Assembly (NCBI GenBank): GCA_027491155.1
Contig: JAIXWR010000021.1
Location: 124,001 to 188,000, forward strand
Source of the DNA: Verrucomicrobiaceae bacterium
GTDB lineage: Bacteria > Verrucomicrobiota > Verrucomicrobiia > Verrucomicrobiales > Akkermansiaceae
DNA: 64,000 bases
Reading direction: 5' to 3'
The translations under genes were made by a program, and so were the position numbers. Position 1 is the first letter of the stretch; each line of letters begins with the position of its first letter. The notes below the pieces were generated by a model, which made no database searches, had not been told where the DNA came from, and saw only the letters and a program-made list of their open reading frames with translations. Positions 53,005 through 60,500 of the stretch are shown here, in pieces.

Positions 53005-53817
53005 CTATTTGCCGAGGATCTCGCCGAGCTTGTCGGCGCCTTCGATCTCGAGACCGGTCCACGGTTCGTCCTTCGGGAGGACGGCGATCGAAAGGGGCGG
53101 CGGCGAAAGGTCGTCGGGCGCGGCACCGGCCAGCTCGGCCACGGTCTTGCCGGGATCGAGCCGGTTGAGCGGCAGCATCCCGTAGCCGCCTCCGATGTCG
53201 ACACCGTCGCCGTGGCGCATTTCGAAATGAAGGTGGGCCGGGTAGTAGCCGTTCGCGGTGCCCACGGTGCCAAGCCGTCGGCCGCGGGAAACCAGGGTGC
53301 CGACCGCGACGTCGATGCGGTCGAGGTGGGCATACATCGACTGCAGCAGCCGGCCGGCGGGATCGCGGTGGACGACGACCACCACCTTGCCCCAGCCCGG
53401 CGACGGCTCGCCGGCGAAAGCAACGAGCCCGTCGGCCGTGGCGTGGACGGGATCGCCGAGGTCGGTGTTCATGCCGCCGATGCCGTTGAGATCATCGCCG
53501 GTGTGATGACCGCCGCGGCTGTCGTTCATTTCCCAGAACTTCTGCGCGTTGTAAGTCAGCGCGCCGTGTTGCGAGCCCATCGGCGCGTCGAAGCGGGTCG
53601 CGGCGGGGATTTCCCCGAGCTGCCAGCCGGAGAACAGGTGCAGCCGGTGGCGCGGTTCGCCGTCGGCCGGCAAAAGCAGGGGCGCATCGGCGTCCTGGAA
53701 ACTGGTGAGCGCCTCGATCGGCGGGAGTTCCGGCGGGCGATCCCGCCACAGCGCGAAGCCGAGCAGGCCGGCGGTGGCGAGCAGGATGGCGAGGGAGGCG
53801 GGATGGATCCAGCGCAT
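53005..53817 (-). CDS. M23 (LytM-type) metallopeptidase, membrane-anchored
   Basis: A 270-residue protein. An N-terminal membrane anchor (about 9-24) precedes a C-terminal LytM domain with zinc ligands H105 and D109 (HHTGDD) and H197 in HLHFE (195-199); H195 and H164 (YAHLD) fit the catalytic pair. Such domains cut peptide cross-links in peptidoglycan or, when inactive, regulate amidases; here all metal residues appear present. It is last in the leftward envelope cluster, 23 bp after the OmpA-type gene. Confidence 0.92.
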   Translation of the reverse strand: MRWIHPASLAILLATAGLLGFALWRDRPPELPPIEALTSFQDADAPLLLPADGEPRHRLHLFSGWQLGEIPAATRFDAPMGSQHGALTYNAQKFWEMNDSRGGHHTGDDLNGIGGMNTDLGDPVHATADGLVAFAGEPSPGWGKVVVVVHRDPAGRLLQSMYAHLDRIDVAVGTLVSRGRRLGTVGTANGYYPAHLHFEMRHGDGVDIGGGYGMLPLNRLDPGKTVAELAGAAPDDLSPPPLSIAVLPKDEPWTGLEIEGADKLGEILGK

Positions 53818-55284: not shown

Positions 55285-56784
55285 TCAATCCTTGGGCGCT
55301 TCCGCCGCTTCCTCCTCCTTGCGCGGCAGGCCCGGCAGGTCGACTTTCAATTCCCTGCCCTGGCGAAGGAGATAAAGGCTGGTCGTCTGCACCGCCGCGG
55401 AAGCGGCGAGGTACTGGTAGAACTCGGTCACGTTGGAAACCCGGCTTTCGTTGACCCCGACGATCAGGTCGCCCGGCAGGATGCGGTTCGCGGCGAGACC
55501 TCCCGGGCTGATCTCCACCGCCAGGACGCCGCTGAATCCATTCTGGCGGTCCACCGCCGAAAGCTCCGCGACTTGCAGGCCGATGGCTTCGAGCGTCTCC
55601 TCCATGTCGCGGACCTTCGGCTGGAGCGTCTGCGGCACCTCGGCGGCTTCGGCCCGGCTCTCGGTGATGGTGGCTTCCATGGCGAGTTCCTGGCCGGCGC
55701 GCCACACGCGCAGCGGCACCTTGCGGCCGACTTTCGTCCGCTGGACCAGATTGATCAGTTGGGTCGTGTCGCGGATTTCCTGCCCGTCGTAGGAGAGGAT
55801 CACGTCGTTGACCTGAAGCCCCGCGAGTTCCGCGGGAGAACCGGCGCCGACGCCCACCACCACACCGCCTTCGAACATCCGGACGCCCAGATAACCGCGG
55901 ATCGGGCGGCCGCGCTGGAGGATCGAAAAGAGCGTGTCCTTGACGTCGTTCGACGGGATCGAGAAACCCACTCCCTGGAATCCGGGATTGTTGCGGTCCG
56001 GGGTGTAGATCGCGGAGTTGATGCCGATGATTTCGCCCTGCAGGTTGACGAGCGGGCCGCCGGAGTTGCCGGGATTGATCGCGGCGTCGGTCTGGAACAA
56101 GTCGCGCTGGGTGTCGGACAGCGAACGCTCGACCGCGGAGATGATGCCTTGGGTGATGGTCTCGCCGAGGCCGAAGGGATTGCCGATGGCGAACACCAGC
56201 TGGCCGCGGCGGACCTGGGTGGAATCGCCGAACTTCAGGGGCTGGAACTTGGTGCCGTCGCCCTCGATCTTCAGCACGGCGATGTCGAGCAGCCGGTCTT
56301 CGCCGATCAACGTGGCCGGTAGCGTCTTGCCGGACTTGCCGTTTCCTTCCGGCAAGGTGACCTCGATCTTCTGTTGGCCGGCGACCACGTGATAGTTGGT
56401 CACCACGTGTCCTTCATGGGTCACGATCACGCCCGATCCTTGGCCCTGCGTGGGGACCATGCGCAGGCGCTGCCGCCCGATCCCGTCGATGCGGCGTTCG
56501 CGGCGCACGCCGGCGGTGTCGATGCTGACCACCGACGGGACCACGGCTTCGGTCAACCTCGCATACTCGGCATCGAGCCGGGCCAGCAGCTCCACGTCGC
56601 CGAGTTCGAGCGGCGGCTTGTTCGGCAGCGTGAAATTCTCCGGACGGAAATCCTGTTCGTTTCCGCCGGAGCCGTTCCACAGGCGGCTGAATCCCGCGGT
56701 TCCGTTGCGGATAAAATACACGGCGGCGAAGGCGACCGCGAAGACGGTCGCCAAGGCCACCAGGCGGCGAATGCCTTGTTGCAT
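55285..56784 (-). CDS. htrA: HtrA/DegP-family serine protease with two PDZ domains
   Basis: A 499-residue exported protease. A membrane or signal helix (about 6-24) leads to a trypsin-like domain with catalytic H132 (TNYHVV), D167 (LLDIAV) and S241 (GNSGGP). Two PDZ domains follow: GYLGVRMFEGGVVVGV and a second after about 385 (VLAVEISPGGLAANRILPGDLIVG). It degrades or holds misfolded envelope proteins. It is in the leftward cluster 79 bp after the Lon-like gene, so both would serve envelope proteolysis. Confidence 0.95.
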   Translation of the reverse strand: MQQGIRRLVALATVFAVAFAAVYFIRNGTAGFSRLWNGSGGNEQDFRPENFTLPNKPPLELGDVELLARLDAEYARLTEAVVPSVVSIDTAGVRRERRIDGIGRQRLRMVPTQGQGSGVIVTHEGHVVTNYHVVAGQQKIEVTLPEGNGKSGKTLPATLIGEDRLLDIAVLKIEGDGTKFQPLKFGDSTQVRRGQLVFAIGNPFGLGETITQGIISAVERSLSDTQRDLFQTDAAINPGNSGGPLVNLQGEIIGINSAIYTPDRNNPGFQGVGFSIPSNDVKDTLFSILQRGRPIRGYLGVRMFEGGVVVGVGAGSPAELAGLQVNDVILSYDGQEIRDTTQLINLVQRTKVGRKVPLRVWRAGQELAMEATITESRAEAAEVPQTLQPKVRDMEETLEAIGLQVAELSAVDRQNGFSGVLAVEISPGGLAANRILPGDLIVGVNESRVSNVTEFYQYLAASAAVQTTSLYLLRQGRELKVDLPGLPRKEEEAAEAPKD

Positions 56785-56863: not shown

Positions 56864-58633
56864 TCACTCCTCTTCCATGATCTCCGGATCCTCGGCCATT
56901 TTCCGGTAGGCGCCTTGCATGTCGTTGAGCGCTTCCTTGACCTTTTTGGCGTAGTCACCGGCTTCCTCGTCTTCATCCGGACCGTCGGCCACCAGCTTGC
57001 AGACCTTGATCATGGACTTGTGGTAGTCCTTGAGCCGCGGGTCGATCTGCTTGCTGAGTTCCTCAAGCGATTCGAGGGCCTCCTTGGCTTCCTTCTGGTC
57101 GTCCTTGTCGACCTCGGCCTCGTCGTCGTCATCCTCGTCGACAAACATCAGGCGGCCGATCTTCCGGAGGACGCCGGAGGAAGCGATCTCGATCTGGCTC
57201 AAGGTGCCCTGGACGCTCAGGGTTTTCGGCGACTCACCCTTGCCGTGCTGGAGCAGGAGCTTGGCCGAAAGGTGGTTCGGCATGCGGTCGATGACGCCCT
57301 GGAGCCGCTTCTGGACCTCGGCGTTCTTGAGCAGGGCTTCCCCTTCCGATCCCTTTTCCTTGATGACCTTCACCACATCGGCGAAGGCCTCGAGCGTGGC
57401 CTTGACGTCGGAGGACTTCTCGGCCCGGGAGATGGCGTAGGCCTCGTCGAAGTCCTTCATCGTGAAAATCTGGATGTCGAGGAGCTGCTGGATGCCGTCG
57501 AGCAGCAACACGTCGGCTACCTCCTTACCGTTGTCGACCGGGATGCCCACGATCTTGCAGCCGCGCTTGGTGGCCCCGCGGATCTTCGCGGCGGTGCCGC
57601 CGATCTTCTGGACCTGGCCGTCGGCGGTGATGTCCCCGGTGCAGGCGAACTCCTCGTCGAGCTCCTCACCGGAGAACAGCGAGTCGAGGACGAGGGTGAA
57701 AAGCGTGGCGGCGGAAGGGCCGTCTTTCGGGACATACTTGTCCTGGAAGCCCAGCTCGATCTTGTAGCCGTCCGGGATCTTGTCTTCCTTTTCGGAATAG
57801 CGGATCCGCAGGAACTTGATCACTTCCTCGAGGCTGCCGCCCATCATGGGACCGACGTCCTGGTTGAAGGTGAAGAGCAGGTCCTTCTGCCCGGGCTCCT
57901 TGAGGGCGGTCGCGTTCACCGTGGAGGCGGAACCCGCCATGTTGCCGCTGGGCAGCTGGCGCACCACGAGGCCGTTGATGCGGCCCTGCGCGCGGGCGAA
58001 CTTTTCGGCCTTGCCGCCGGGCATGGTGACTTCCTTCTTTTCAAAGACCTCTTCCTCTTCATCCCACGGATTGCGGGAATGCCGGATCGACTTGCCCAGC
58101 ATGTCGGTCCAATCCGCCTTGAATCCGTCGTCGGCGAGGGACTTCTGCTGTTCCTCGAGTTTCTTGGCGGACTCCCCCTCGGGATCGAAGCGCAGGGCGA
58201 TGTCCACGATGTAGGCGGCACATTTCCGGTTGTCGTCGTTGTCCTTCGCCTTGTCCAAGGCCTTGAGCCCGCGGATCAGGCGGCCGACCACGCGGTCCTT
58301 CTTCGCCGGCTCGTCGATGGTTTCACCCTTGTCCTTCAGCTGCTCGAGCACTTCCTTCACCCGCGGGTTGTCGTCGTCCAGACGGTGGGCGATCGCCAGC
58401 GCGTGGGCGCGGAGTTCGTAGTCCACCTTGTCTTCCTTCTCGTCGAAATCGCGGGCGATCGAAACCAGGCTCCCGATGGCATCGGTCCGGTCGAACTTGT
58501 CGAGCTTGAGCTTCTTGGTATCGAAGATCTCCTTTTCAAGATTCGGCGGCCGGTAGGGAGTCGCGGCTTGGACGAGCCCGCCGGTGAAAAGGAACACTAC
58601 CGACAGGAGCAGGGGAAGAAACCGCGTGGACAT
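56864..58633 (-). CDS. Exported Lon-like (S16) protease without an ATPase domain
   Basis: A 589-residue exported protein (signal LPLLLSVVFLFTGGLVQA). Residues about 215-410 match the Lon proteolytic domain: KDGPSAATLFTLVLDSLFSG with Ser S307, ACTGDITADGQVQKIGGTAAKIRGA with Lys K350, and CKIVGIPVDN. The distance S307 to K350 is 43 residues, exactly as in E. coli Lon (679 to 722). There is no AAA+ or N-terminal Lon domain; the flanks are charged helical segments with no family match. It would act in the periplasm or on the cell surface without ATP. It lies 55 bp downstream of a degenerate paralogue and upstream of htrA. Confidence 0.85.
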   Translation of the reverse strand: MSTRFLPLLLSVVFLFTGGLVQAATPYRPPNLEKEIFDTKKLKLDKFDRTDAIGSLVSIARDFDEKEDKVDYELRAHALAIAHRLDDDNPRVKEVLEQLKDKGETIDEPAKKDRVVGRLIRGLKALDKAKDNDDNRKCAAYIVDIALRFDPEGESAKKLEEQQKSLADDGFKADWTDMLGKSIRHSRNPWDEEEEVFEKKEVTMPGGKAEKFARAQGRINGLVVRQLPSGNMAGSASTVNATALKEPGQKDLLFTFNQDVGPMMGGSLEEVIKFLRIRYSEKEDKIPDGYKIELGFQDKYVPKDGPSAATLFTLVLDSLFSGEELDEEFACTGDITADGQVQKIGGTAAKIRGATKRGCKIVGIPVDNGKEVADVLLLDGIQQLLDIQIFTMKDFDEAYAISRAEKSSDVKATLEAFADVVKVIKEKGSEGEALLKNAEVQKRLQGVIDRMPNHLSAKLLLQHGKGESPKTLSVQGTLSQIEIASSGVLRKIGRLMFVDEDDDDEAEVDKDDQKEAKEALESLEELSKQIDPRLKDYHKSMIKVCKLVADGPDEDEEAGDYAKKVKEALNDMQGAYRKMAEDPEIMEEE

Positions 58634-58688
58634 GATCGGCAGATACCTTGTCGCGCGGTCCTTGGAAAGGGGAAAGCCGGGATGGGGA

Positions 58689-60500
58689 TCAATCCTTCTT
58701 GGGCAATTCCGGAAGCGGATACTCTTCGGTATCCCCGGCAGTGATCCCCAGTTCCCTCAGGACCCGGAGATACTCCAGCCTTGTCGCATGGCAGGCCTGG
58801 CTCTTCTTCTCGTCCAACTCGTCGTCATCGTTGAACCCTTTCTTTTCCATGATCCGGGCCAGGGGCCGCAGGCTGTCGGCCACATCGGTCGCCGCCTTGT
58901 GCAAGTCCCGGTCCCGAAGCTCGATGTAACTGGCTAGGGCGTCGAGCCGCTCGCGGCTGGCTTTGTGCGCGGCCTCGAGATCTTCGACTTCGACGTCGTC
59001 GGGATAGGTATAGGCAAGGTAATCCAGCGGTTCCAGGGCCGAGCGGATTTCCCTCGCCAGAATCGGCCGCTGCAGGAAGCGCGGCCGGCTCCCGGAGCCC
59101 TGGAGCGCAAGCATCCTCGCCGAGGCGTGCTCCGGCATCACTCCCGCCACCTCCCGCAAGCGCTGCTGCGTCGCCGGATGGGCGACGAAGGTTCCCAAGG
59201 CCTTGCCCTGGCCGACCTTGCGGACTTCTTCGAAGCGCTTCAGTCCGTCGGCAATCTCCGCTTCCGGGGTCGGGGACGCCAGTTCACAAAGCTCGTCCAC
59301 GTCGCCGGCGAGCAGCACCTCGTTCTTCATGAAGAAGGCGGCATCGTCCATGACCACCAGCGACGTCAGGAAGTCCGCCGCCTCCTCCGGCAGCACCAGC
59401 CGGGTTCCCGGCGAGAGGGACGACATGGCCCGCAGGGTCTGCCAGAAGCGGGGCGGCAAGGTGAGCTTGCCGTTCTCGTCCACCACCGCGAGCACCGCCG
59501 CGGCGGGCACTTTTCCGGTGTAAGCGCCTTCGAGCAGCAAGGCGGTCGTGCCGGTCAGCGCGCGGCCGTTCCGGCTCATCGAGTAATCGATCCGCCCGAG
59601 ATCGAGCTTCACTTCGTTTCCCGCCGGGAAAGAACCGTGGCGGGCGGCCATGGCCACTTCGACCGGCTTCATCGCTTTCCCGAAGCGCTCGGTCATCCCC
59701 TCGCCCGACACCTCGAACACCAGTCCCGGGTTCTCCGGGGTGCTTTCCTTATCATCGCCATCGTCGTCATCATCCTCGTCGGGATCCGGGGTCCGCACCC
59801 GCAGCTTGACCGGCACCATGTCCAGCTTCATCCGCTTGCTTTCGCGGTCGAAATACCAAACCGGCATCGGTGAGGACAACTCTTTGAGCAAAAGTTCTTT
59901 ATGCGTTTCCTGAGGATCGGAATCGGAATCCTCTTCACCGTCTTCCTCCGTCATCTCCGGCTCGCTTTCGGATTCCTTCGGCCGGAAGGCCGACTCGTCG
60001 GCCACCCACGATTTCCACTGCCCCTGCTCCCCCGCGGACTCCCGGTCGCGGGCCTTCGGGTGCTTCGGATCGGAAATCACCAGGACATCGCCCAGACAGG
60101 CCGCCAGCGCTTGTCCGTCGGCGCCGGCTTCCGGCATCTCCAGCCAAGCCAGCGCCTGCCAACTGCGGTTCCGGGCCCGTTCCGAATCCTCGGGGCTGCC
60201 AGCCTCGGGCCGCTTGTCCTGTTTCAATGCATCGACCAGTTCCCGGGCCTCCCGGTTCCCCGGATCCAGCGCCAGGGCCAGCGCCGTCATCTGCGCCACC
60301 CCGCGCAACGAATGCCCTTCTCCCGCCGACGTCCGCGCCAGCACCGTCAACTGCCGAGACAGTGCCGTCATCGTGTCCACATCCACCGGCAGCTTGTCCC
60401 GACGGAAAGGCACCGGCCCCTCCGCCGGCGGAACGAACTCCGCCACCGCCGGCAGCACCAGCGCGCCCATCATCAAAAAACCGCGGGTGAACGATCGCAT
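58689..60500 (-). CDS. Catalytically degenerate paralogue of the exported Lon-like protease
   Basis: A 603-residue exported protein (signal about 1-20, ending AVA). The arrangement follows the neighbouring Lon-like protein: helical N-terminal part, a segment rich in Asp/Glu (187-250), the Lon-like region (about 260-410, YSMSRNGRALTGTTALLLEGAYTGK), and a helical C-terminus that resembles the neighbour's (LASYIELRDRDLHKAATDVADSLRPLARIM). The place of the catalytic serine is taken by A314 and that of the lysine by T355 or R357, so the peptidase is predicted to be dead. ATG 60500 is used; ATG 60509 is an alternative. It is first in the leftward cluster. Confidence 0.8.
   Translation of the reverse strand: MRSFTRGFLMMGALVLPAVAEFVPPAEGPVPFRRDKLPVDVDTMTALSRQLTVLARTSAGEGHSLRGVAQMTALALALDPGNREARELVDALKQDKRPEAGSPEDSERARNRSWQALAWLEMPEAGADGQALAACLGDVLVISDPKHPKARDRESAGEQGQWKSWVADESAFRPKESESEPEMTEEDGEEDSDSDPQETHKELLLKELSSPMPVWYFDRESKRMKLDMVPVKLRVRTPDPDEDDDDDGDDKESTPENPGLVFEVSGEGMTERFGKAMKPVEVAMAARHGSFPAGNEVKLDLGRIDYSMSRNGRALTGTTALLLEGAYTGKVPAAAVLAVVDENGKLTLPPRFWQTLRAMSSLSPGTRLVLPEEAADFLTSLVVMDDAAFFMKNEVLLAGDVDELCELASPTPEAEIADGLKRFEEVRKVGQGKALGTFVAHPATQQRLREVAGVMPEHASARMLALQGSGSRPRFLQRPILAREIRSALEPLDYLAYTYPDDVEVEDLEAAHKASRERLDALASYIELRDRDLHKAATDVADSLRPLARIMEKKGFNDDDELDEKKSQACHATRLEYLRVLRELGITAGDTEEYPLPELPKKD

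Follow-up and report, generated by a model that had tools for sequence, protein, structure and literature searches.

Within a 64,000-nucleotide stretch of the genome of a Verrucomicrobiaceae bacterium (GenBank assembly GCA_027491155.1, contig JAIXWR010000021.1, positions 124,001 to 188,000; hereafter the window, to which all coordinates refer unless another locus is named), two adjacent genes encode proteins, here called P1 and P2, that share a Lon-like region. We think it probable, though by no means certain, that P1 is a Lon-fold peptidase which is exported and works without ATP, and that P2 is an ancient, scaffold-type pseudoprotease of the same fold. Exported Lon peptidases are already known (YlbL, SepM), and the new part is a pseudoprotease that outlives its enzyme. 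A first-pass annotation, made from sequence alone, had proposed two adjacent proteins of about 600 residues with a common Lon-like region. Both open reading frames were confirmed, and a blastp comparison of P2 with P1 (E-value 1e-14, 23% identity, 559 columns) indicates that they are homologous over most of their length. The two genes and the codons at their dyad columns, as placed by alignment, are as follows.

58689..60500, minus strand: P2, inactive Lon-fold paralogue, 603 amino acids from the ATG at 60500
60509, minus strand: alternative in-frame ATG for P2, three codons upstream of the ATG at 60500
56864..58633, minus strand: P1, intact Lon-domain peptidase with an export-like start, 589 amino acids
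57713..57715, minus strand: P1 S307 codon, predicted nucleophile
57584..57586, minus strand: P1 K350 codon, predicted general base
59559..59561, minus strand: P2 alanine codon in the column of P1 S307
59436..59438, minus strand: P2 threonine codon in the column of P1 K350

The P2 residue numbers A314 and T355 count from the ATG at 60500; the same residues are A315 and T356 in the reference sequence window:58692-60503, which starts one codon earlier.

P1 belongs to the Lon peptidase fold family (S16) and is not an ATP-dependent Lon. It matches the Pfam family Lon_C with an E-value of 5.3e-16 (59.2 bits, cut-off 21.1). In alignments to solved Lon domains, S307 and K350 fall on the Lon serine and lysine at the spacing of 43 given in the first-pass annotation, and P1 carries the PKDGPSA motif along with this dyad. 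Sequence alignment shows that the dyad is kept in 6/6 copies of P1 from the window's genus. The P1 model, built from 27 alignment rows, has a predicted local distance difference test (pLDDT) score of 88.4, and its residues 215–405 superpose on the proteolytic domain of E. coli Lon with a Z-score of 20.9 (177 residues aligned, 2.1 Å). The preceding 214 residues comprise an export-like start and a helical domain. No AAA+ or other ATPase family was found in P1 with Pfam or NCBIfam, and Pfam at E-values up to 1 found neither a LON N-domain nor a PDZ domain. Matches of P1 to the NCBIfam Lon models are confined to the proteolytic end and lie far below cut-off, and the SepM model NF041438 scores 27.7 bits against a cut-off of 200. 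We considered P1 as the LonA of its genome and rejected this because P1 has no ATPase. The window's genome (G000) has two other Lon_C matches, on contigs C36 (L002) and C40 (L003), which from their translations look like BrxL of a BREX system and ComM/YifB, respectively. Searched with TIGR00763 at its curated cut-off, 0 of 18 genomes of the genus gave a Lon versus 8 of 14 control genomes; the usual cytoplasmic Lon seems to be missing from the genus.

P2 lacks the Ser-Lys dyad, and its sequence and predicted structure identify it as a Lon-fold pseudoprotease. The column of S307 holds an alanine and the column of K350 a threonine. The alanine and threonine had been correctly called at the outset; the arginine offered as an alternative to the threonine lies two residues past it and not in the lysine column. 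P2 is recognized by a profile of intact relatives, which scores it at 59.0 bits versus 4.4 for the best of 2000 shuffled P2 sequences. P2 has no Pfam or NCBIfam match at E-values up to 1, so no ATPase, LON N-domain or Lon_C was found in it; the absence of an ATPase and a Lon N-domain, anticipated for both proteins, thus holds across these libraries. A PADLOC search of P2 was also without match. The P2 model was built from six P2 rows without any P1 row, keeping the fold test independent. It has a pLDDT of 79.3, with values below 50 at residues 1–32, 165–200 and 242–258, and superposes on Lon with a Z-score of 15.5 (173 residues aligned, 2.6 Å, 12% identity) and on ComM with a Z-score of 14.8. 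All 50 matches listed in this superposition search were Lon, ComM or BrxL. Foldseek returned a best E-value of 1.9e-5 (probability 1.00) for the same model, and the 50 matches listed were again all Lon-type folds. The Lon domain filled these lists, in which no separate match to the N- or C-domain appeared. Structure prediction therefore gave a Lon-type fold for both chains, contrary to the result that the first-pass annotation had named as refuting its idea. The alternative that P2 comes from a different family, with an active site of its own, was rejected, as there was no library match and the listed fold matches were all Lon-type.

P1 and P2 are both built of three parts, a helical N-domain that is common to the two, a Lon core and a helical C-domain, and these parts are constrained differently in the two proteins. 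In six pairs from the genus, identity in the intact P1 is 68% for the N-domain, 85% for the Lon core and 57% for the C-domain; the corresponding values for the dead P2 are 60, 38 and 43%. The Lon core is therefore the best-kept part of P1 but the worst-kept part of P2. A Lon core freed from catalysis beside a retained N-domain is what would be expected of a scaffold, an oligomerization part or a substrate-holding part. The low identity of the core could also come from a pseudogene that is decaying slowly, and four P2 matches (G471, G478, G491 and G511) are flagged with one stop. However, G478, G491 and G511 have uninterrupted frames of 586 to 613 amino acids, in which the flag probably marks the normal end of the gene, and G471 is a fragment. 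Ten genera have full-length P2 frames of about 565–785 codons, most of the shorter frames lying at contig edges, and no substitution is seen at R35, P39, D41, W163 or W354 across an alignment of 36 P2 rows. Given this conservation we find slow decay scarcely credible.

The conserved residues could instead mark an enzyme with a different active site, within either the Lon fold or the helical domains. Among its own conserved residues P2 does have near-invariant polar ones (R35, D36, D41, D139, N312, R368, E395, H459 and S461, each in at least 0.9 of the 36 rows), and the near-invariant W354 adjoins the former lysine position. By inspection, however, there is no Ser-Lys or Ser-His-Asp set among the polar residues at the position of the Lon active site. 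H459 and S461 lie in a C-domain motif whose serine is also kept in intact forms (S456 in P1), and these two residues therefore look structural. We regard a second active site as very improbable, and return to P2 as a pseudoprotease in what follows.

To follow both forms beyond the genus, 288 genomes of the order were surveyed with a P2 profile, and intact genes were counted at a score of at least 300 bits. The profile was needed to find more copies, a search of the phylum with the single P2 sequence having recovered it in only 6 of 240 genomes. Within the window's family, 90 genomes gave a P2 match; the genomes without a P2 match comprise 20 listed ones, all of genus g2, and 134 further ones. 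An intact gene was found in 31 family genomes, each of which also has P2, and the remaining 59 of the 90 P2 genomes have no intact partner at this threshold. The serine and lysine are both present in 31/31 intact family genes, while 0 of the 88 readable P2 cores have both (15 have the serine alone and 7 the lysine alone); two of the 90 P2 rows, at a contig edge, have no core. Taken together, the 59 partnerless genomes and the absence of any P2 core with a dyad indicate that P2 is not solely a regulator of P1.

The genus that contains the window gives the same picture. P2 is present in 17 of its 18 genomes, the exception being a genome that is 61% complete, and P1 proper is present in only 6 of the 18, adjoining P2 in each. 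Survival of P2 without P1 implies that it serves something else too, and its retention in so many relatives in which no live enzyme was found suggests that it probably has an independent function. The first-pass annotation had pictured a motorless Lon-type peptidase with a dyad-less paralogue acting as its regulator or hetero-oligomer subunit. The first half of that picture has held up well; the second half does not account for the whole of the distribution. In the survey of relatives proposed there, every family genome with an intact form has the dead one, and most family genomes with the dead form have no intact one at the threshold used.

Where both forms occur together their arrangement is regular. 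In 20 of the 31 family genomes the intact gene immediately follows the dead one, and the dead gene is upstream in 20/20. In another family, f57, this order recurs in five pairs classified as dead and intact (L117, L251, L252, L253 and L264); with start codons assigned mechanically, four of these pairs overlap by 4 bases and one is separated by 1 base. In a further f57 locus, L255, the upstream partner is cut at a contig edge and was left unclassified. Judged by gene order in the two families, the dead-intact pairing appears to be an old two-gene arrangement. P1 and P2 are probably made together where both are present, with the dead gene first, and most likely form a mixed assembly.

This arrangement is also evidence for the narrower proposal that P2 serves P1 and nothing else, as its subunit or regulator, the P2-alone genomes being cases of decay or of a distant intact relative below the threshold. 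In addition to the dead-first adjacency and the overlapping f57 genes, the proposal draws on the N-domain: scored by iterated profile at an E-value below 1e-3, the shared N-domain is present in 20/20 family intact genes beside a dead one versus 1 of 11 placed elsewhere. However, the unlinked short intact forms included in our tree form a separate clade, so that this correlation reflects a few events and not 31. A second, unlinked intact copy in G242, a genome of the genus, also carries the shared N-domain, and 59 of the 90 P2 genomes in the family have no intact gene at or above the threshold. We therefore judge it unlikely that P2 is nothing but a part of P1, and prefer an ancient pseudoprotease that works with P1 where P1 is present.

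A separate observation concerns the N-terminal part of intact forms in the neighboring family f2. At several f2 loci (L090, L093, L094 and others) an intact Lon core and C-domain are joined to a different, longer N-terminal part, which had no Pfam match in the two loci scanned. The N-domain has been swapped in these f2 intact forms.

The tree of dead and intact forms was built from 101 of 132 rows after near-copies, fragments and five divergent rows (the L246 second copy, the L254 first copy, L266, L267 and L268) were dropped. It splits dead from intact forms with two changes, one of which is a lone tandem copy at L258. This topology fits, with some uncertainty, a single old split between the dead and intact forms. 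The exceptional copy, L258:7854-10100, is the middle one of three tandem intact-type genes and retains the serine but has an arginine at the catalytic lysine; it appears to be a separate, younger inactivation. A comparable case is the pair L246:5210-6937 and L246:6987-8660 (genome G512, family f1), in which both genes are without the dyad (S/Q and N/H, the downstream copy being S/Q), as though the active partner had also been inactivated.

Several of our observations weigh against, or blur, the reading of P2 as an ancient pseudoprotease that pairs with P1 in the envelope. The arginine copy at L258 and the downstream S/Q copy at L246 imply that the dyad was lost more than once, and long, fast dead branches could group the dead rows artificially in the tree. 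Loss of the lysine is not universal in P2: the seven of 88 cores that retain it have A, T, D or Q in the serine column, and the statement that the lysine is always lost is false. Pairing is not universal either. The intact gene is elsewhere, not behind the dead one, in 11 of the 31 family genomes, two dead copies stand side by side at the f57 locus L254, and in some f2 and f57 genomes every copy of a tandem set is intact. The N-domain profile gives weak matches or none to the intact partners in f57. The presence of P2 in all 31 genomes with an intact gene might be expected anyway; with P2 so common in the family, this co-occurrence is weak evidence for partnership, and we rejected it as proof. 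The relaxed constraint on the dead Lon core is not seen in every genus, since the core is about as well kept as the N-domain in g134 (58 vs 57%) and g137 (68 vs 67%). Finally, at one locus of the genus (L149 in G254) no HtrA or OmpA match was found within 8 kb past P2, where other genes stand instead.

That last point bears on the neighborhood of the pair. In the window, three further genes follow P1 on the same strand.

55285..56784, minus strand: HtrA/DegP-type serine protease carrying PDZ domains, the gene that follows P1
53841..55175, minus strand: protein with a C-terminal OmpA domain, after the HtrA gene
53005..53817, minus strand: M23-type peptidase, after the OmpA-type gene, found in part of the genus loci

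The order on the minus strand is thus P2, P1, HtrA, OmpA-type, M23, with gaps of 55 bases between P2 and P1 and 79 bases between P1 and HtrA. A scan of the region for promoters and terminators gave results at chance level, terminator-like sites being no commoner than chance. Besides the window, 14 of the 15 genus loci with the flank covered have the HtrA and OmpA-type genes after P2 or after P2-P1. On a tree of the HtrA and OmpA-type proteins (15 rows), the presence of P1 needs three changes, at least two of which are forced by starred branches. P1 has therefore been gained or lost on more than one occasion, with P2 retained; the tree is compatible with gain and with loss.

Export of P1 and P2 is likely from their N-termini and from the HtrA and OmpA-type neighbors. 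Signal-peptide-like starts were judged by eye together with a hydropathy window. All 22 rows looked at (6 of P1 and 16 of P2, two of the latter from other genera) have a basic residue followed by a hydrophobic run at the N-terminus, usually with an A-x-A-like end, as judged by eye, just before a conserved mature start. The hydropathy maximum is at the N-terminus in 6/6 P1 rows but in only 8 of 16 P2 rows, another stretch being more hydrophobic in the other eight, which counts against our reading. These eight rows fit the idea that the pair is not exported, its N-termini being membrane anchors or mis-called starts, and that it is a cytoplasmic stand-in for the missing Lon, as would suit a genus in which none of 18 genomes yields a Lon at the curated cut-off. 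However, a signal-peptide-like start in every row and neighbors of envelope type (HtrA, OmpA-type and M23) make a cytoplasmic pair quite improbable, and an exported pair remains our preferred reading.

We propose that P1 is exported and acts in the envelope as a Lon-fold Ser-Lys peptidase that needs no ATP. Having no unfolding motor, it could cut only loose, unfolded or specific substrates. A role in envelope protein quality control may be suggested. The predicted folds, the presence or absence of the dyad, the gene order, the distribution and the altered constraint in the genus are results, whereas export, peptidase activity, co-expression, assembly and the quality-control role are inferences. 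P2 would keep working where P1 has been lost, which in the genus is mostly beside HtrA and the OmpA-type envelope protein; as the usual neighbor in the genus, HtrA is the first candidate for what P2 serves without P1. A more speculative extension, which we offer tentatively and consider rather doubtful, is that P2 is an inactive envelope Lon ring or platform of the Verrucomicrobiales, whose N-domain binds substrates or partners and feeds the protease at hand, whether P1 or, in most of the genus, HtrA. The live enzyme would then be optional and the dead one core, and P2 would represent an unrecognized class of exported pseudoprotease. Genomes with both forms, with the dead form alone, or with intact forms of another build offer ready natural material for asking what function a pseudoprotease has when its enzyme is absent, and how Lon-type cutting proceeds without an unfolding motor.

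A literature search, which left subscription journals mostly outside its reach, showed among the papers listed no report of a motorless extracytoplasmic Lon with an ancient inactive twin that outlives it. SepM of Firmicutes is a PDZ-Lon protease with a Ser-Lys dyad and no AAA+ domain, likely extracytoplasmic, and we know of no dead twin for it or for YlbL. P1 resembles both in having a Lon peptidase domain with a Ser-Lys dyad and no AAA+ domain, and its signal-peptide-like start suggests that it may lie outside the cytoplasm too. YlbL is described as a Lon without an AAA+ domain that is likely outside the cytoplasm (PMC6051672). Unlike P1, which has helical N- and C-domains and no PDZ match, YlbL as described there has a transmembrane and a PDZ domain. 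The PKDGPSA motif is reported for LonA (PMC2605481), and P1 has this motif and the proteolytic fold in common with the canonical LonA so described but is without its AAA+ module and LON N-domain. The same 2008 survey counts two inactive forms among 117 Lon homologues, and its main text has no mention of names in Verrucomicrobi- (PMC2605481). MtaLonC is an ATP-independent Lon-like protease reported to degrade unfolded substrates and to form a hexamer, with a large N-terminal fragment that holds a possible non-functional AAA-like domain (PMC3391209). P1 is predicted to share its independence of ATP, and YlbL and MtaLonC are precedents for the peptidase proposed here, but where LonC, by that account, has a large N-terminal fragment, P1 has an N-terminal part of 214 residues with a helical domain and an export-like start. 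In RadA and ComM the Lon-like domain is described as a hexamerization module (PMC11612176), a precedent for the scaffold role proposed for P2. P2 has the Lon fold in common with these proteins; however, theirs is, on that description, joined to a DNA motor, whereas P2 has no ATPase match and begins with an export-like start.

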